From assembly GCA_003248075.1 (NCBI GenBank), contig QJYK01000019.1, forward strand, positions 1 through 46,553: a stretch of 46,553 nucleotides of DNA, given 5' to 3'. Shown in pieces: positions 2,403-10,722 of this stretch. The translations under genes were made by a program, and so were the position numbers. A model generated the notes under the pieces. The model was not told the DNA's origin. It made no database searches and saw only the letters and a program-made list of their open reading frames with translations. Source of the stretch: Gemmatimonadota bacterium. Lineage in GTDB: Bacteria > Gemmatimonadota > Gemmatimonadetes > Longimicrobiales > Gaopeijiaceae. Within the stretch, counting starts at the first letter, position 1. Each line of letters opens with the position of its first letter.

Positions 2403-3746
2403 ATGAAAGTGCTGGTGGTCGGTGCCGGCGAGGTCGGGTTCCATCTGGCACAGCGCCTATCAGAAGAGAACCAGGACGTGGTGCTCATCGAGGCCGACCC
2501 CGAGCGGGCGGACTTCGCGGGGCAGCAGCTGGACGTCCTGACCATCGTGGGGAACGGCGCCTCGCTGTCCGTGCTGGAAAGGGCCGGGGTGCGCGGCGCG
2601 CGCATGATCCTGGCGGTGACGAGCCGCGACGAGGTCAATCTCATCGCCTGCCTCGCCGCCAAGCGTCTCGGCGTCCGCTACACGGTCGCGCGCATCTCCA
2701 GCCCCGAGTATTACGAGCGGGGGAGCGTGCTGTCCCGGGAGCAGATGGGCATCGACCTCATGATCAACCCGGAGCGCGAGTGTGCGTGGGAAACGTATCA
2801 GCTCCTTCAGAGCGCGGCGGCGACGGACGTCGCCCAGTTCGCGGCGGGCAGGGTACAACTCATCGGTCTCCAGGTCCGGGACGGCGCGCCGGTCGCGAAC
2901 AAGACCCTGACCGAGCTGTCGGCCGACCTGCGCGGCTACCACTACGTAACCGCGGCGATCGTGCGTGACGGCGTCACGACGATTCCGAAGGGGGACGCGC
3001 GCATCCGGCCCGGAGATCAGATCTACCTCCTCGCGCCCACCCCGGAGGTTCAGGGGATCCCCCCCCTAGCCGGCTACGAGCGGTTCCGCCTGCGCAGGGT
3101 GATGATCGCGGGCGGCAGCGCGGAGGGGGAGTTCCTCGCCCAGACCCTCGAGGAGCACGGCGTCGAGACGACGATCCTGGACCGCGATCGCCGCCGCTGC
3201 CTCGAGCTCGCCGAGCGCCTTCCCCGCTCCCTAGTGCTCCACGCCGACGCCACCGACCTCGAACTGCTGGAGATGGAGGGTGTTTCCGGGATCGACGGCT
3301 TCGTGTCCGCGACCGGGCACGACGAGACCAACCTCCTGTCCAGCCTGTTGGCGAAGACCGTCGGGGCCAAGAAGGTGGTGAGCCTGGTGCACAAGTTCGA
3401 GTACCTGCGCCTGGTACCCAAGGTCGGGATCGACGCCAGCGTCTCACCGCGGATCGCGACGGTGAACGCGATCCTCCGGTACGTCCGGCGCGGGCGGGTG
3501 ATGACGGTCGCCAGCCTCTCCGGCATCGAGGCCGAGGCCATCGAGTTTCGGGTCGAGGAGGACTCGCCTGTCGCCGGACATCCCTTGAGGGAGCTGCACT
3601 TCCCCAGGGGAGGGCTGGTCGGCATGATCCTGCGCGGCGACGACATCATCATGCCTCGCGGTGACGACAGCATGCTGCCGGGCGACGACGTGATCGTCTT
3701 CGCACTCCCCGAGGCGATCTCCGAGGTCGAGAAGCTGTTCGACTGA
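2403..3746 (+). CDS. trkA: Trk potassium uptake regulatory subunit TrkA
   Basis: Cytoplasmic NAD-binding gating subunit of the Trk potassium transporter, 447 aa, close to the usual length of full TrkA proteins. It holds two RCK units. The first begins with a Rossmann motif GAGEVGFHLA at residues 7-16 followed by an acidic strand end (LIEADPER). The second starts near residue 230 with MIAGGSAEGEFLA and ends its sugar-binding strand with ILDRDRRR. Each is followed by a TrkA-C type domain; the last one contains HFPRGGLVGMILRGDD. ATG start with GGAG seven bases upstream. Its stop overlaps the trkH start by one base, so the two subunits are co-translated in fixed proportion. Confidence 0.96.
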   Translation: MKVLVVGAGEVGFHLAQRLSEENQDVVLIEADPERADFAGQQLDVLTIVGNGASLSVLERAGVRGARMILAVTSRDEVNLIACLAAKRLGVRYTVARISSPEYYERGSVLSREQMGIDLMINPERECAWETYQLLQSAAATDVAQFAAGRVQLIGLQVRDGAPVANKTLTELSADLRGYHYVTAAIVRDGVTTIPKGDARIRPGDQIYLLAPTPEVQGIPPLAGYERFRLRRVMIAGGSAEGEFLAQTLEEHGVETTILDRDRRRCLELAERLPRSLVLHADATDLELLEMEGVSGIDGFVSATGHDETNLLSSLLAKTVGAKKVVSLVHKFEYLRLVPKVGIDASVSPRIATVNAILRYVRRGRVMTVASLSGIEAEAIEFRVEEDSPVAGHPLRELHFPRGGLVGMILRGDDIIMPRGDDSMLPGDDVIVFALPEAISEVEKLFD

Positions 3747-5215
3747 TGTCGCTCCGTCGCGTCGCCGCCGTGGTCGGGCTCCTCCAGGTCTTCGTGGCCC
3801 TCTCCATGGCATGCGCCGGCCTCGTGGCCCTCTACTACGGGGACGGCGACGCCCGCGGGATCTTCCTGGCGGCCCTCGTCACCGCAGCGGCCGGCTCGGT
3901 CCTGTACCGTGTGGTGCGCATCAAGGGCGAGCTGACGGCGCGCGAGGGCTTCGCGATCGTGACGTTCGCCTGGCTCGCGACCGCGCACTTCGGGGCGCTC
4001 CCCTATCTGCTCACGGGGGTTCTCACCCATCCCGTGCAGGCGATCTTCGAGTCGATGTCCGGCTTCACGACGACGGGCGCCACCGTCTTCACCGGGATCG
4101 AATCCCTCCCGCACGGGATCCTGTTCTGGCGCTCGCTCACCCACTGGCTCGGGGGCATGGGCATCATCGTGCTCGTGATCGCGGTGCTGCCCTACCTGGG
4201 CGTGGGGGGCATGCAGCTCTTCCGCGCGGAGGTCCCGGGGCCCACTCCCGAGCGGCTGCAACCGCGGATCACGCAGACGGCCAAGCTCCTCTGGTTCGTC
4301 TACGTCGGGCTCACGGCCGCACAGACCGTGCTCTACGTCGCCGGCGGAATGGGCCTGTTCGACGCCGTCAACCACTCGTTCGCCACCCTGGCGACCGGGG
4401 GGTTCAGCACCCGCAACGCCTCACTGGCCGCATTCGACTCCCGGTACATCCACTACGTGACGATCGTCTTCATGTACCTGGCCGGGGTGAACTTCACGCT
4501 CCACTACCGGGCGGTCACCGGACGCGTCGACATCCTCCGCGATCAGGAGTGGCGCTTTTTCACCGCGCTCATCCTTGCGGCTTCAGTCCTGATCGCGACG
4601 GTGAACTTCGCCTCGGGGGCCTACGCCGCTGCGGGCACGGGCCCGGAGGCGGCCGTGCGCGACGCGCTCTTCCAGGCTGTTTCGATCACCACCACGACCG
4701 GCTTCGTCAGCGCGGACTACGAGCTCTGGGTCCCAGGCGCCCAGGCAATCCTACTCGCGCTGTTCTTCGTCGGTGGAATGGCAGGCTCCACAGGGGGTGG
4801 CATCAAGGCGCTCCGCGTCCTCCTTTTGCTCAAGGCGACCGCGATCGAGATTCGCAAGCATCTGCACCCCAAGGCGGTCCTGCTCACCCGGGTCGGCAGC
4901 ACGCCGGTCCGCGAGGACGTGCTCGCCAACGTGATCGGTTTCGTGGTCCTCTACCTGATCCTGTGCCTGGCGGGCGCGCTCGTGCTCGCCATCCTGGGCA
5001 TGGACCTGATGACCTCCATCGGGGCCAGCCTGGCCACCGTCGGCAACGTGGGGCCGGGCTTCGGCTCGGTCGGCGCAGTCGACAATTACGGGTGGATGTC
5101 GGGCCCGGCCCTCGCCGTCCTCACCTTCCTGATGTTGGTCGGGCGACTCGAGATCTACACGGTGCTGCTGCTCTTCCACCGCGAGACCTGGAAGCGCCGC
5201 CGCTCCTTCCACTGA
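3746..5215 (+). CDS. trkH: Trk potassium uptake membrane subunit TrkH
   Basis: Inner-membrane potassium-translocating subunit, 489 aa, normal for TrkH. Four pore-loop repeats are expected; the clearest carry SGFTTTGATVF (about residue 105), ATGGFSTRN (about 217) and TTTTGFVSADYE (about 315). The motifs HWLGGMGIIVL and GGMAGSTGGGIKALR are diagnostic of the family. Roughly ten hydrophobic segments are visible. The ATG overlaps the trkA stop (TGATG). TrkH needs the TrkA ring for NAD/ATP-dependent gating, so the pair makes a complete uptake system. No promoter is visible between the genes. Confidence 0.96.
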   Translation: MSLRRVAAVVGLLQVFVALSMACAGLVALYYGDGDARGIFLAALVTAAAGSVLYRVVRIKGELTAREGFAIVTFAWLATAHFGALPYLLTGVLTHPVQAIFESMSGFTTTGATVFTGIESLPHGILFWRSLTHWLGGMGIIVLVIAVLPYLGVGGMQLFRAEVPGPTPERLQPRITQTAKLLWFVYVGLTAAQTVLYVAGGMGLFDAVNHSFATLATGGFSTRNASLAAFDSRYIHYVTIVFMYLAGVNFTLHYRAVTGRVDILRDQEWRFFTALILAASVLIATVNFASGAYAAAGTGPEAAVRDALFQAVSITTTTGFVSADYELWVPGAQAILLALFFVGGMAGSTGGGIKALRVLLLLKATAIEIRKHLHPKAVLLTRVGSTPVREDVLANVIGFVVLYLILCLAGALVLAILGMDLMTSIGASLATVGNVGPGFGSVGAVDNYGWMSGPALAVLTFLMLVGRLEIYTVLLLFHRETWKRRRSFH

Positions 5216-5251
5216 GGCCCTGGCCGCGCGCGCAGACGCAATGCGACGGCC

Positions 5252-5890
5252 TCAGGTCGTCCCGAAGAGCCGATCCCCCGCGTCGCCGAGACCGGGCAGG
5301 ATGTAGCCGTTCGCGTTCAGCTCGCGGTCGAGGGCGGCGGCGTACACCGGTACGTCCGGATGCTCCCCGGCGAGTCGCCGAACGCCCTCGGGGGCCGCCA
5401 CGACACACATGAAGCTGATCCGCTCGGCCCCACGCGCCTTCAGCCCGGTCAGCGCGGCGCTCGCGGACCCGCCCGTCGCGAGCATCGGATCGACCACGAT
5501 GAACCGGTGGACCTCCGAGCGCGGCGGCACCTTGAAGTAGTACTCGACCGGCTGCAAGGACTCCTCGTCGCGGGCCAGGCCCACGTGGCCCACGCGGACT
5601 CCGGGGATCAGCCGAACGACGCCCTCGACCATTCCGAGGCCGGCACGCAGGATCGGAACCAGGACGATCCTCCCCTCCACCACGCGATGCCCGGTCGTCT
5701 CCTCCAGCGGCGTGCGCACCGTCACTGCCTCCTCGTCGAGGCCCCGGGTCACCTCGTAGGCCAGGAGCATGGCGATCTCGTCGACGAGCTCCTTGAACAG
5801 CTTCGTGGGCGAGCTCTCGTCGCGAAGGAGGCGCAGCTTGTGGCGGAGCAGCGGGTGGTCGACCACCGTAAGGTTCGCCAGGTCGGACAT
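5252..5890 (-). CDS. upp: Uracil phosphoribosyltransferase
   Basis: Pyrimidine salvage enzyme making UMP from uracil and PRPP, 212 aa, the normal size. The ATG at 5890 is preceded by a strong GAGGAGG Shine-Dalgarno. Diagnostic segments include LRDESSPTKLFKELVDEIAM near the N terminus, LVPILRAGLGMVEG in the middle, the PRPP-binding loop VVDPMLATGGSASAAL (about residues 128-143) and the C-terminal GDAGDRLFGTT uracil-binding end. It is the last gene of a minus-strand run beginning at the site-2 protease and lies 23 bases after the SDR-like gene. The stop faces trkH convergently. Confidence 0.96.
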   Translation of the reverse strand: MSDLANLTVVDHPLLRHKLRLLRDESSPTKLFKELVDEIAMLLAYEVTRGLDEEAVTVRTPLEETTGHRVVEGRIVLVPILRAGLGMVEGVVRLIPGVRVGHVGLARDEESLQPVEYYFKVPPRSEVHRFIVVDPMLATGGSASAALTGLKARGAERISFMCVVAAPEGVRRLAGEHPDVPVYAAALDRELNANGYILPGLGDAGDRLFGTT

Positions 5891-5913
5891 TGTCGCCTCC
5901 TCGTCGTGGTCGG

Positions 5914-7572
5914 CTAGCGCTTGATCCGTGCTCCGCCCTCCTCCACGCGGAAGATCCACGATGCGATGCGGCCGGGTCTCAGCGCCCCCGTCTCGTCACC
6001 GTACTCGTGGTCTCCGGTGGAGCCCGCACACACACCCGGACGCTCGGCGATCTCACGCGCCAGCGTCTTGCAGCGCACCCCCCACCGCGCCCAGTTCTGC
6101 TCCCGCAGATCGACCCACCCCCGCTCCACCAGTCGCTGGTCGCGCAGCGGGAGCTCCTCCTCGGGGCGGACCTTGACGTGCGGACCGCGCAGCACATGGG
6201 CGCCGTCGGGCAGCAGGATGGGCAACCCGACGGTGACGATGCGTTGCCGAAGGTCGGCGTCCCCTTCGATCAGGGCCAGGGCCTTGCTGGAGGCGTCCAG
6301 CGGGTCGAGCTCCGAGGCCGCCTGGAGCGTGCCGTAGAGCCTCGCCAGGATCTCCCCTTCGAAGAGCAGCTTGGTAAGGCGCGGAGGGCCCAGCATCTCG
6401 TAGGCGACGGAGCGAATCCCCGACTCGGCCTCCAGCGCCTCCATGCGGTCGATGGCCACCGAGCGCAGCGCCCCGGCGCGATACGTCGGGCCCATGGTAG
6501 CGGCGTCCAGGGCCGTCACCACGTCCTTGCCGGTGGGATGCGACAGGATCTCCCGCACCACGTTGTCCGCGATCTCCTCGGGGGTCACGAACTCCATCAG
6601 CCCCAGGGCGGTCAGCGTCTCGAACTCGCCGACGCTGAACAGCCCGTTCTCGCCCGCGTCCAGGTAGACGCCGTCGAGCGGGTCCTGCGTCTGGACCGAG
6701 GCCGAGGCCGCCCCGTCGCCGAATGCCTCGGCCAGGGGGATGGGCTTCACGGCGTCGGCCCGGAGGATCGGGCGGCCACCCCGGCGCACCGTGCCTCGGG
6801 CGATCGACTTCCACGAGATCGCGGCCGTGGGCTTGACCTCCTTTACGGCGGGAGCCCCGGGCGTCCTCGCCATGAGGTAGAGGAAGAGCGTCTGGGCGCC
6901 CGCGATGCCCGACTTGGCCAGGAGCACACGGGACGGTCGCTCCTCGGAGTGCGTGAAGGGGATGTTGAGGCCCATTCCGCCGGTCCCCGCGGTGCCGACC
7001 TTCACGAAGACCTCGGTTCCCGCGCGCTTCATCCCCTCGAGCGCGATCTGCGTGTGCCGGATCAGCTGCGGTAGATAGAGCGTGGCAAGGTGCCGTTCCA
7101 CGGAGTCGAGGTCGGCCCGGCCGGCGGCCGCGTCGGCCCTCAGCCTGGCTGCCGACGCGAAGGCATCCTGATAGGCGAGCGCTCCGGCCGTGTTGACGCA
7201 GTCGACCAGGATCTGGGGCTGCACCTCGGCCAGCAAGCGGCCGAGCGTGGAGCGCTGGATGACCTCCTCGGAGAGCTCCCCGTAGAGATCGTCCACCAGG
7301 AGGGACCGGGCCTCGGGATCCGCGAGCACGTCCGCCCGGGGACGGTCCTTGAGACGAGCGGGCACGAACAGATCGCCCCATGCGCCATCGAGCTCCACCG
7401 ATGCGGAAAGGGGGTCCCCCCGCAGCTCCTCGACCGCCGCCTCCGATTCTTCCCGGCGCAGCGACGCGATCACGACCCGCTTGGGCTTCTGCTCGAGACT
7501 CTTGCGCGCGACCGCCATGCCCACGAGGCCGGCCCCTCCGAGGATCAGGACCGTCTTATCCCTCAGATCCAT
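5914..7572 (-). CDS. Large SDR-like Rossmann protein lacking the catalytic Tyr
   Basis: Predicted soluble NAD(P)-binding protein of 552 aa. The N terminus holds a clear Rossmann glycine motif, GGAGLVGMAVA (about residues 12-22), and VDCVNTAGALAYQ resembles the NxAG region of extended SDRs. Around residue 220 the sequence RVLLAKSGIAGAQ matches the SDR YxxxK helix, but the Tyr position is Val, so ordinary SDR reduction chemistry is doubtful. The C-terminal half (about 300-552) has no family I recognise. The ATG at 7572 was chosen because GGTGGAG sits just upstream; a GTG at 7581 would add three residues. The 5' end overlaps rluB by 17 bases and upp follows after 23 bases. Annotating it simply as an epimerase would overstate what is visible. 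Confidence 0.82.
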   Translation of the reverse strand: MDLRDKTVLILGGAGLVGMAVARKSLEQKPKRVVIASLRREESEAAVEELRGDPLSASVELDGAWGDLFVPARLKDRPRADVLADPEARSLLVDDLYGELSEEVIQRSTLGRLLAEVQPQILVDCVNTAGALAYQDAFASAARLRADAAAGRADLDSVERHLATLYLPQLIRHTQIALEGMKRAGTEVFVKVGTAGTGGMGLNIPFTHSEERPSRVLLAKSGIAGAQTLFLYLMARTPGAPAVKEVKPTAAISWKSIARGTVRRGGRPILRADAVKPIPLAEAFGDGAASASVQTQDPLDGVYLDAGENGLFSVGEFETLTALGLMEFVTPEEIADNVVREILSHPTGKDVVTALDAATMGPTYRAGALRSVAIDRMEALEAESGIRSVAYEMLGPPRLTKLLFEGEILARLYGTLQAASELDPLDASSKALALIEGDADLRQRIVTVGLPILLPDGAHVLRGPHVKVRPEEELPLRDQRLVERGWVDLREQNWARWGVRCKTLAREIAERPGVCAGSTGDHEYGDETGALRPGRIASWIFRVEEGGARIKR

Positions 7573-8314
7573 CTTCTCCACCTTTGGCTTGTGTCGCCCG
7601 GGACGCGGCCCGCAGCGAGCTGATCTCTTCGTCGGTCAGGGCACGCCAGCCACCGCTGGGCAGATCGCCGAGCTCGATGGGGCCGAAGCGCACGCGCAGC
7701 AGCCGAATCACGGGATACCCGATCGCGCTCATCATCCGGCGAACCTCCCGCTTGCGCCCTTCCGTGAGGACCAGCGTGAAGGTCGCTTGATCAGGCCCGG
7801 TCGCTTCCACCCCGGCACGCATCGCCCTTGCCGGACCGTCCTCCAGAAGCACCCCTCGTCGGAGCCGCTCCGCGGCCTCGGCAGGCGGCACCCCTCGCAC
7901 GGTCGCCCTGTACTCGCGCTCGACGCCCCCGGAAGGGTGCATGAGCGCGTTGGCCAGCCCACCCTCGTTGCCCATCAGGAGCAGACCTTCCGTCGGCTTG
8001 TCCAGCCGTCCGACGTAGCGCAACTCGGCCATCTCCTCGGGCAGGATGTCGTACACCGTGGGGCCGCCGTGCGGGTCGCCTCGGGTTGTGAGGATGCCCG
8101 GGGGCTTGTGGAAGGCGATCCACCGCAAGTCCCGGGGCCGGACGATCTGGCCATCCACTTCGACCACGTCCTGCTCGCCGACCCTGCTGCCCAGCTCCAT
8201 CACGGTGCGACCATTCACCCGGACCCGCCCGGCCACGATCAGCCGCTCCGCCTCTCGCCGGGAGGCCCTCCCCGACATGGACAGGAAGCGCTGGAGTCGC
8301 GGCCTCTCGCTCAA
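7556..8314 (-). CDS. rluB: 23S rRNA pseudouridine synthase, RluB/RsuA family
   Basis: Isomerises a specific uridine in ribosomal RNA, probably 23S U2605 by family resemblance. The 252-residue protein has an N-terminal S4 RNA-binding domain (residues about 6-55, LQRFLSMSGRASRREAERLI), the FHKPPGILTT motif at 68-77 and the catalytic motif VGRLDKPTEGLLL with Asp105 as nucleophile. VEREYRATVRG and EGRKREVRRMM are typical of the RsuA/RluB/RluE/RluF branch. The start is TTG at 8314; later ATGs would remove part of the S4 domain. RluB versus RsuA or RluE is not fully settled. It lies nine bases after scpB, an arrangement common in many bacteria. Confidence 0.92.
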   Translation of the reverse strand: MSERPRLQRFLSMSGRASRREAERLIVAGRVRVNGRTVMELGSRVGEQDVVEVDGQIVRPRDLRWIAFHKPPGILTTRGDPHGGPTVYDILPEEMAELRYVGRLDKPTEGLLLMGNEGGLANALMHPSGGVEREYRATVRGVPPAEAAERLRRGVLLEDGPARAMRAGVEATGPDQATFTLVLTEGRKREVRRMMSAIGYPVIRLLRVRFGPIELGDLPSGGWRALTDEEISSLRAASRATQAKGGEDGSEG

Positions 8315-8323
8315 CGTGCTCGC

Positions 8324-9085
8324 CTAGTCCGGGTCCTGCTCTGCCCCACCTTCAAAGGGCTCGTCGGCGTCGAAGTCGTCGGTTCCGAGGGCTTCGTCCG
8401 TCGCCGCGGCGACGCCCACCGCCGAAGCTCGCTCCGACTCCGACTCTTCGCCGGTCCCTTCGCCGCCCGCTGTAGGGGTCTCCGCTCCCGCCTCCGCGGC
8501 GCCCTCGTCGGTGACCCCCTCCGTCTCCCCCGTGTCCTCCGGCTCCGGACCGAGCGGGATGCGCTCCCGCAGCACGACCGGCAGCTCCTCCGGTCGCGGA
8601 AGGTCCTCCATCGACTCGAATCCGAAGTGCTCGAGGAAGCGCCGCGTGGTGCCGTAGAGCACCGGGCGCCCCAGCCCCTCGGCCCGGCCCACCACGTCGA
8701 TGAGCTCACGATCCGAGAGGGTCTTGAGCACACCGGCACAGCCCACGCCCCGCACGTACTCGATCTCGATCCTCCCGATGGGCTGTCGGTAGGCGATGAT
8801 GGCCAGCGTCTCGAGGGCCGGACCCGAGAGCCGGGAAGGGCGCGGGACGTTGTCGAATCGCTCGAGGTACGGTGCGAACTCGGGGCGCGTGAGCACCTGA
8901 TAGCCCTCGGCGAGCATGACCACCTGGAAGGAGCGCTGAGCATCGTCGTACTCGGCCTGTAGAAAACGGATCGCCTCCTCGACCCGATCCTCGTCGAGGG
9001 CCTCGTCGGCCCGCGCGATCTCGTCCGCGGTCAACGGCGCGTCCGAGGCGAACAGCACGGCCTCGACGATCTGATAGGGATTCAC
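8324..9085 (-). CDS. scpB: Condensin subunit ScpB with long acidic tail
   Basis: Partner of the SMC-ScpA complex that compacts and segregates the chromosome. Residues about 1-180 carry the paired winged-helix fold; LETLAIIAYRQPIGRIEIEYVRGV is a hallmark segment, followed by LIDVVGRAEGLGRPVLYGTT. Residues about 190-253 are a low-complexity Glu/Asp/Ala/Gly tail that is probably disordered, making this protein (253 aa) longer than many ScpB proteins. The start is GTG at 9085, overlapping the scpA stop as GTGA, so translation is coupled. The SMC gene itself is not in the window. Confidence 0.93.
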   Translation of the reverse strand: MNPYQIVEAVLFASDAPLTADEIARADEALDEDRVEEAIRFLQAEYDDAQRSFQVVMLAEGYQVLTRPEFAPYLERFDNVPRPSRLSGPALETLAIIAYRQPIGRIEIEYVRGVGCAGVLKTLSDRELIDVVGRAEGLGRPVLYGTTRRFLEHFGFESMEDLPRPEELPVVLRERIPLGPEPEDTGETEGVTDEGAAEAGAETPTAGGEGTGEESESERASAVGVAAATDEALGTDDFDADEPFEGGAEQDPD

Positions 9086-9900
9086 TGGGCCCGCTCTCCT
9101 TCTTGTTCGGCGCCGACGGCCGCCGGCGGCTCGTCGCTCTCGGGGACTTCCTCGCTCTCGGGCTCCTCTTCACGCCGATAGATCCACAGCTCCGCGAAGG
9201 GCCGCGCCTGACGCAGGTAGAGGATCCGCCGCCGCGTGAGCTCCAGACCGGCGAGGAAGGTCATCACGCCGTGCATCTTCTCGCGGAAGCCCTGCAGGAG
9301 CCGGCTGAACTCCACACGGGTGCCCTCCCGCAGCCGATCGAGGATCAGGACGACCTTGTCCTCCATGGCGATCGTCCGGGGCGTGATTCGGTGCTCGCGC
9401 TCGCGCTCGACCGGCATCTCGACCAGCAGCGCCTTGGCCCAGACGTCGCTCCAGGTGGTCTCGAGCGGCGTCTCGGTAAGCGAGCGCCGGGGTCTCGGAG
9501 GGCAGTACCCCTTTCCGAAGCGCCGCGCACGATCGGCTTCCGCGGCATTCAGCCGCTGCGAGATCTCCCGGATCTGCTCGTACTCGAGCAGGCGCCTCAC
9601 CAGCTCCGCCCTCGGATCCTCGTCCTCCTCCTCTCCCGTGCGGGGGAGGAGCATCTGCGCCTTGATGCGGACCAGCGTGGCCGCCATCTCGAGGAACTCC
9701 CCGGCGCTGTCGAGGTCGTGGGCGCGGATCGTGCGAACCGCATGGAGGAACTGATCCGTGATCTTCGAGATGGGGATGTCGAAGACGTCGATGTCCTGGG
9801 TCCGAATGAGGTGCAGCAGCAGATCCAGGGGTCCCTGGAACCGCTCGACGTCCACGAGGAGGAAGCCCTCGCGACGGGCCAAACCCTCCTGCACGCTCAC
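9082..9900 (-). CDS. scpA: Segregation and condensation protein ScpA (kleisin)
   Basis: Kleisin subunit bridging SMC heads, 272 aa. The N-terminal SMC-binding helix is clear: VERFQGPLDLLLHLIRTQDIDVFDIPIS, followed by FLEMAATLVRIKAQMLLPR. The middle is charged and variable; the C-terminal winged helix (about 185-245) contains FSRLLQGFREKMHGVMTFLAGLEL and LYLRQARPFAELWI. A short acidic tail ends the protein. The GTG at 9900 was chosen because it overlaps the protease stop as GTGA and puts the conserved helix at the expected distance; a longer upstream frame runs through the protease gene and was rejected. Confidence 0.93.
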   Translation of the reverse strand: MSVQEGLARREGFLLVDVERFQGPLDLLLHLIRTQDIDVFDIPISKITDQFLHAVRTIRAHDLDSAGEFLEMAATLVRIKAQMLLPRTGEEEDEDPRAELVRRLLEYEQIREISQRLNAAEADRARRFGKGYCPPRPRRSLTETPLETTWSDVWAKALLVEMPVEREREHRITPRTIAMEDKVVLILDRLREGTRVEFSRLLQGFREKMHGVMTFLAGLELTRRRILYLRQARPFAELWIYRREEEPESEEVPESDEPPAAVGAEQEGERAQ

Positions 9901-10547
9901 ATCCACAGACGGATGAACCCGTCCGCGGCGCCCATCAGGTAGGTCACCGGTGCCAACAGGACCCGGAACAGGCCCGGGAAGAGGAACATGAGGCCCATGA
10001 GCACGAGGATCCCGTACCGACCGGCCTGCCGGTATTGTAGCGCCAGCGGGCGGGGAAGCGCGTGGAAAAGAACGTGGGACCCATCGAGGGGCGGAATCGG
10101 GATCAGGTTGAAGACCGCGAGGATCAGGTTGAGGAAGATGCCGTACTGGGCGGCTTGCAGCAGCAAATCGGTGACCACATTGGTCCCGACCAGAGCCTCG
10201 ATCTTGAGGAAGGCGACGGTGGCCAGCGTCGAAATCGCCGCCAGGATCAGGTTCGACACGATCCCGGCAAGAGAGACGCGAATGTCCCCTGCCACGTAGT
10301 TCCGGTACCGGGACGGGTTCACCGGCACGGGCTTGGCCCATCCGAACATGAAGCCCGAGCCGCTGAAGTGCAGCGCCAGAGGTACCAGGACCGAGCCGAT
10401 CGGATCCAGGTGCGACGCCGGATTGAGCGTGAGCCGGCCGAGACGTTCCGCGGTGTCGTCACCCTCGCGGCGCGCCTGCCACGCGTGGGCGACTTCGTGG
10501 ACGACGACCGAGAAGATCAGGACGGCGATGAGGAGGATGGCTTCCAT
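9897..10547 (-). CDS. Site-2 protease family (M50) membrane metalloprotease
   Basis: Predicted intramembrane zinc protease, 216 aa, of the short site-2 protease group without PDZ domain. The zinc motif HEVAH lies at residues 17-21 in the first hydrophobic segment. The second conserved site NLIPIPPLDGSHVL (about residues 143-156) supplies the Asp ligand. About five to six membrane segments are visible. Its substrate is unknown. It is the first gene of the run leading to scpA, scpB, rluB-like, SDR-like and upp, and shares a 4-base overlap with scpA. No Shine-Dalgarno is evident before the ATG. Confidence 0.9.
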   Translation of the reverse strand: MEAILLIAVLIFSVVVHEVAHAWQARREGDDTAERLGRLTLNPASHLDPIGSVLVPLALHFSGSGFMFGWAKPVPVNPSRYRNYVAGDIRVSLAGIVSNLILAAISTLATVAFLKIEALVGTNVVTDLLLQAAQYGIFLNLILAVFNLIPIPPLDGSHVLFHALPRPLALQYRQAGRYGILVLMGLMFLFPGLFRVLLAPVTYLMGAADGFIRLWM

Positions 10548-10693
10548 GGCGGCAAAAACCTACCTACCGTGGGTGGGGAGGGTCTAGTGCCCGGGCCGGG
10601 GATGCAGGCGCCCCGGTCGGTGCGCGGACCGGCCGGGCCGTGATGAAACCTAGCGGACGAGGGCCACGAACACCCCGCCCTGAATCGCGCCCA

Positions 10694-10722
10694 TTGCTCC
10701 CCTTGCCTGTCGTTTCTAGGTT
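10694..10722 (+). promoter_or_regulatory. Candidate rpsT promoter
   Basis: TTGCTC at 10694-10699 and TAGGTT at 10717-10722 are separated by 17 bases, a sigma-70 type arrangement upstream of rpsT. The leader would be about 40 bases. Supported by spacing only; other matches cannot be excluded. Confidence 0.4.

Follow-up and report, generated by a model that had tools for sequence, protein, structure and literature searches.

A putative SDR-type enzyme family without the catalytic tyrosine, encoded beside rluB in Gemmatimonadota and Calditrichota

The SDR-like protein encoded on the minus strand at 5914..7572 of the window (the whole 46,553-nucleotide stretch of Gemmatimonadota DNA analyzed here) is most likely an NAD(P)(H)-dependent, SDR-type enzyme that lacks the catalytic tyrosine and is putatively active through rebuilt acid-base chemistry. 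We give roughly even chances to the fuller reading, an active, single-copy metabolic enzyme in which an extended-SDR (Rossmann) domain is fused with a C-terminal domain peculiar to the family. That the gene lies next to one for uracil salvage is nothing more than chance gene order. An earlier note on this DNA had described an SDR-like protein without its tyrosine, had found half of its residues unfamiliar and had suggested a role in pyrimidine metabolism; the fold, the tyrosine loss and the lack of known relatives of the C-terminal part are supported, and the pyrimidine role is not.

The gene and its family

The reading frame runs from an ATG at 7572 to a stop ending at 5914 (552 codons plus the stop), and the plus strand over 5914-7572 is interrupted by a stop. 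The earlier note had placed the gene correctly and left its strand unstated. An in-frame GTG at 7581 is a possible alternative start; homologues align from the position of the ATG, which is preceded by the purine-rich sequence GGTGGAG. The adjoining gene (7556..8314, minus strand) encodes an rluB-type 23S rRNA pseudouridine synthase, with Pfam PseudoU_synth_2 and S4 matches and RluB as its best NCBIfam match, under the cut-off. Its stop at 7556-7558 gives an overlap of 17 bases with the SDR-like gene. Upstream of rluB lies what we take to be an scpB homologue (8324..9085, minus strand), in an order that recurs in homologous loci. On the other side is upp, encoding uracil phosphoribosyltransferase (5252..5890, minus strand; TIGR01091, 261 bits versus a cut-off of 208). 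Its likely ATG at 5890, picked by the start of the domain and the SD-like sequence GAGGAGG before it, leaves a gap of 23 bases after the SDR-like gene. Both distances had been given correctly before. A simple scan of 4900-10700 detected no sigma-70-like promoter (0, versus 0.3 in shuffles) and a single terminator-like site, which is inside scpB; therefore, nothing in the scan contradicts the presumed co-transcription of the SDR-like gene with its neighbors. Two plus-strand genes at 2403-5215 of the window, which read to us like trkA and trkH, converge on the upp end of the operon and are found at the same place in loci L172 and L213.

The gene is present as a single copy in the genome. A scan of genome contigs confirmed 378 relatives, of which 80 were kept. 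Homologues at E <= 1e-60 were found in 96 of 395 Gemmatimonadota genomes, a few of them cut by contig ends; full-length scores above 600 bits were obtained in 58 of 296 genomes from the phylum to which G395, an Ignavibacteria genome, belongs; and matches at E <= 1e-20 occurred in 15 of 40 genomes from the phylum that includes G396, a Calditrichia genome, one of these being split in two pieces and another being without the C-terminal part. Among the three phyla searched, the family therefore occurs in Gemmatimonadota, in Calditrichota and on the Ignavibacteria-Rhodothermia side of Bacteroidota. The scores in the G395-phylum search, all either more than 620 bits or no more than 94, also mark the family as discrete. 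A plasmid search with the protein gave no match, and a search of PHROGs gave one, at E 0.034. The window protein reached no Pfam gathering score, its matches at E <= 1 being confined to residues 7-55, and its best NCBIfam match, at 29.9 bits, was far under the cut-off of 250; none of the curated family models extended past about the first 60 residues.

For the analysis of conservation, 144 distinct near-full-length proteins from 170 loci were aligned after removal of proteins shorter than 535 residues, duplicates and one protein with an internal stop. A set of 155 distinct sequences was formed from these and 12 Calditrichota proteins, minus duplicates. The SDR-like gene is under purifying selection: by a simple Nei-Gojobori calculation, its dN/dS was about 0.18 against L002, L003 and L004 and about 0.04 for L007 versus L008, and it was better conserved than the neighboring rluB in 58 of 61 loci. 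At the level of sequence, the abundance of full-length homologues, together with the ratio of about 0.18, confirms that conservation of the open reading frame exceeds chance.

Predicted fold and the missing tyrosine

An AlphaFold2 model built from 60 sequences (pLDDT 83.6, pTM 0.79) predicted a Rossmann fold of the SDR type over residues 1-365 (6478..7572, minus strand). In VIA comparisons, 999 of 1000 chains matched this domain at a Z of at least 8. The top structural matches were the fungal SDRs MalC and PhqE (6nkh and 6nkm; Z 18.3 and 17.4), the former superposing over 228 residues with an rmsd of 3.0 Å. These proteins have a nonstandard active site and, unlike the SDR-like protein, one domain only; since their scores are hardly above those of ordinary SDRs, many of which fall within about 1.6 Z units of the top, no special kinship is indicated. 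The model thus bears out the SDR-type fold, for which the earlier note had named structure prediction as a check. The alternative raised there, a saccharopine dehydrogenase, was rejected as a family assignment because Sacchrp_dh_NADP scored 14.9 bits versus a Pfam cut-off of 25.1, over residues 8-55 alone. The second-domain fold of that enzyme was absent from the PDB matches listed for the SDR-like model, an absence that excludes nothing.

The landmarks read earlier in the window protein are all present, namely, the Rossmann glycine motif GGxGLVG (residues 12-18), AKSGIAGAQ (219-227) and Val216-x-x-x-Lys220. Glycines 12, 13, 15 and 18 of the cofactor motif GxxGxxG are kept in 144 of 144 proteins. 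In profile alignments, the match to CapD-like, GalE-like, classical and saccharopine-type proteins was significant no farther than the first 55 residues or so, which leaves Val216 unplaced; this residue was equated with the SDR tyrosine because of the secondary structure of the model, in which a strand at 188-192 is followed by a helix at 215-235 that bears Lys220. By this placing, the loss of the catalytic tyrosine is confirmed and is family-wide: tyrosine occurs at position 216 in none of the 155 distinct homologues (V, 91; M, 39; T, 12; Q, 5; P, 5; S, 2; L, 1), and Lys220, corresponding to the lysine of YxxxK, occurs in all of them. Thr194, taken from secondary structure to be the Ser/Thr after strand 5, is likewise present in 155 of 155. 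It is followed by A/S/T-Gly and then by a glycine-rich loop (193-201) that leads into THSE (207-210), the whole reading GTxGxGGMGxNIPxTHSE. Besides Thr194 and Lys220, the residues invariant in the 155 sequences are D124, Y134, H173, K191, G193, T207, H208, E210, P213, S214, E245, K247, E308, N309, E327, E333, Y364, K401, W486 and D488. Loops 133-135 and 197-212 were modeled with low confidence and yet contain invariant residues, as would be expected of an active site that is ordered by its substrate.

The remaining residues, 366-552 (5917..6477, minus strand), form a mostly helical C-terminal domain that was modeled well alone (pLDDT 87.1, pTM 0.85). No known fold was found for this model: the best Foldseek match had an E value of 2.4, the VIA Z was at most 2.4 among the 110 chains compared, and the domain profile matched no PDB sequence. 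The domain probably represents a type that solved structures do not yet include, so far as these weak searches reach.

Gene order across the family

The conserved neighbors of the SDR-like gene are scpA-scpB-rluB, in both Gemmatimonadota and Calditrichota; a neighboring upp is limited to some close relatives. Of the 67 distinct Gemmatimonadota loci that extend 450 bases or more upstream of the gene, 62 have rluB as the immediate upstream neighbor (the exceptions being L029, L056, L061, L064 and L169), as do all 12 Calditrichota loci; among 79 distinct other loci, rluB was upstream only at L070, which is also from Calditrichia. In a midpoint-rooted tree, 64 Gemmatimonadota sequences formed one clade, and the Calditrichota sequences sat among those from the Bacteroidota side. 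Because of this placement the rluB link may be ancestral, the rooting of the tree being uncertain. L082 and L101, from metagenome-assembled genomes titled Gemmatimonadetes, have homologues that cluster with Calditrichota in this tree, which points to possible mislabeling or a divergent lineage.

The earlier note had tied the protein to both rluB and upp as a nucleotide-sensing partner of uracil salvage, an idea suggested by the overlap and the short gap in the window and one with which the recurrence of rluB agrees. The order rluB-gene-upp is conserved only in its rluB part, however. Of 61 distinct Gemmatimonadota loci that reach 1.4 kb or more downstream, 13 have a upp gene no more than 2.5 kb away; among 68 distinct loci of this phylum, upp adjoins the SDR-like gene directly (<300 bases) in 8, and among 79 distinct loci from elsewhere in none; on the Bacteroidota side there is no rluB link either. 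Moreover, scpA-scpB-rluB was intact in 10 of 10 opened Gemmatimonadota genomes without the SDR-like gene, where rluB was followed directly by upp in five, by moxR in four and by neither within the stretch taken in one; among such genomes of the same family, upp followed rluB directly in 5 of 6. Four further genomes (G288, G141, G176 and G365; loci L213, L214, L215 and L216) carry decaying remnants of the gene, 1 to 3 short homologous pieces, in the gap after rluB, where the following gene is upp, pcm, moxR and moxR, respectively. From these remnants and the gene-less genomes it follows that the gene is old at this site and was lost repeatedly with rluB and upp left undisturbed. Since upp still follows rluB when the SDR-like gene is absent, upp is a flank and not a partner, and the gene-order argument for a pyrimidine role is removed. 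The uracil-salvage idea is therefore rejected, is already largely refuted as regards upp and is, overall, very improbable. Operon position next to upp is misleading by itself; the SDR-like gene is a removable insert in a stable row of genes.

On the Bacteroidota side, the contexts consist of varied housekeeping genes, and 50 of 76 non-Gemmatimonadota loci have no same-strand gene within 150 bases upstream. Neighbors on the Ignavibacteria side, several of which bear names that we presume from their sequences, include ftsA-ftsZ, a rarA-like ATPase gene, purA, a phosphofructokinase-like gene, a nuo-like subunit gene and an aldehyde dehydrogenase gene. Two of the contexts could suggest an enzyme of coenzyme A (CoA)-thioester or aldehyde metabolism. 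In all six divergent Rhodothermia-like loci (L131 to L136), the SDR-like gene follows a same-strand gene for an alpha-beta-fused E1 dehydrogenase of about 700 residues, with no more than 150 bases between them in 5 of 6, and paa epoxidase genes are beside the SDR-like gene in 5 of 6; in addition, an orthologous aldehyde dehydrogenase gene is upstream in 10 Ignavibacteria-side loci. None of these neighbors recurs in Gemmatimonadota or Calditrichota loci, however, and the many loci without a close upstream gene also tell against this role, which we consider doubtful. The aldehyde dehydrogenase link was read as local gene order; the aldehyde dehydrogenases at L137 and L138 are a different enzyme. 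The E1 dehydrogenase gene of L131 to L136 is mostly accompanied by an enoyl-CoA hydratase gene and paa genes. The phenylacetate link was tested by a search for PaaA (TIGR02156) in the same 395 genomes of Gemmatimonadota: 117 have true PaaA and 96 have the SDR-like gene, but none has both. Family f4 includes genomes of either kind and yet none with both. The link was rejected, and no function was read from the lack of overlap because lineage explains much of it. A divergent PaaA-like protein, which at about 135 bits falls short of the family cut-off, is common, occurring at G000:C13:2343-3212 and in many other Gemmatimonadota.

Possible catalysis without the tyrosine

Classical and extended SDRs share with this family the predicted fold over residues 1-365, the cofactor glycines and the lysine of YxxxK; the family differs from them by the absence of the tyrosine, by the glycine-rich THSE loop at residues 195-214 and by its own C-terminal domain. 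Eugenol synthase is a plant enzyme and is shorter, and the searches made revealed no sequence similarity to it. It is nevertheless a precedent for SDR-type enzymes without the tyrosine: eugenol synthase and other PIP-family reductases have lost the tyrosine and kept the lysine, as this family has, and replacement of Lys132 of eugenol synthase by Ala or Gln inactivates it (PMC1991597).

The best sequence similarity is to UDP-GlcNAc 4,6-dehydratases of the FlaA1/CapD/PglF type (Polysacc_synt_2), which share the GxxGxxG Rossmann start, and the protein might accordingly be a nucleotide-sugar dehydratase or isomerase that works without the tyrosine. The best sequence matches among solved structures were such a dehydratase (3pvz) and a CapD-type protein (6bwc); the latter, Pen, is a UDP-sugar dehydratase and was also ranked first by Foldseek. 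Polysacc_synt_2 was matched weakly by 21 of 60 family members, and Met in MxxxK is also seen in CapD-like proteins of the same phylum, which by profile score are some of the nearest SDRs outside the family; Met is the residue found at position 216 in 39 of 155 homologues here. WbpM and PglF also have Met in place of the tyrosine and are still active, the chemistry of PglF being done by Thr395-Asp396 and Lys397, and [ST]DK or [ST]DE is the acid-base motif of UDP-GlcNAc dehydratases (PMC8987622). In the present family, however, the loop GTxGxGGMGxNIPxTHSE stands in place of that motif, the similarity stops after about 55 residues, near the Rossmann N terminus, an extra C-terminal domain of 187 residues follows, and no sugar-nucleotide cluster recurs among the neighbor clusters. 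The family resembles PglF in its tyrosine loss but is without Thr-Asp-Lys and cannot be filed there; membership was rejected on this ground and because the Polysacc_synt_2 cut-off was not reached, the model being absent from the matches of the window protein at E <= 1. We therefore regard a nucleotide-sugar enzyme as unlikely. Equally improbable, in our judgment, is a dead protein. NmrA-like SDRs are catalytically dead NAD(P)-binding sensors or regulators, and loss of the tyrosine in 155 of 155 homologues and a C-terminal domain without known enzyme relatives would suit such a protein. Nevertheless, neither Lys220 nor Thr194 varies, many polar positions in the putative active-site loop are invariant as well, and no constant regulatory partner gene is found among the neighbors. 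The invariant polar residues in both halves of the protein favor catalysis over pure NAD(P) sensing, as judged by conservation, and these polar surfaces could instead have a binding or regulatory role.

In the preferred reading, that of an active tyrosine-less SDR-type enzyme, NAD(P)(H) would be bound via GGxGLVG. Strand 2 does not end in an acidic residue, which makes NADP(H) the probable cofactor; Lys220 would hold the nicotinamide ribose. The acid-base work of the tyrosine may be taken over by invariant residues in or near the mobile loop, the candidates Thr194, His208, Glu210 and Tyr134 having been picked by conservation only. Invariant charged residues from the two domains would hold a polar or anionic substrate, to be oxidized, reduced or isomerized as part of a housekeeping pathway that has nothing to do with uracil salvage. 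Since it was lost repeatedly, the gene is dispensable in some lineages. More tentatively, the protein may represent a new family of tyrosine-less extended SDRs in which the glycine-rich THSE loop provides new acid-base chemistry and an undescribed C-terminal domain is fused, catalyzing an unrecorded reaction of core metabolism in Gemmatimonadota, Calditrichota, Ignavibacteria and Rhodothermia. Together, the conservation across several phyla, the putatively rebuilt SDR active site and the undescribed second domain point to an unassigned metabolic step.
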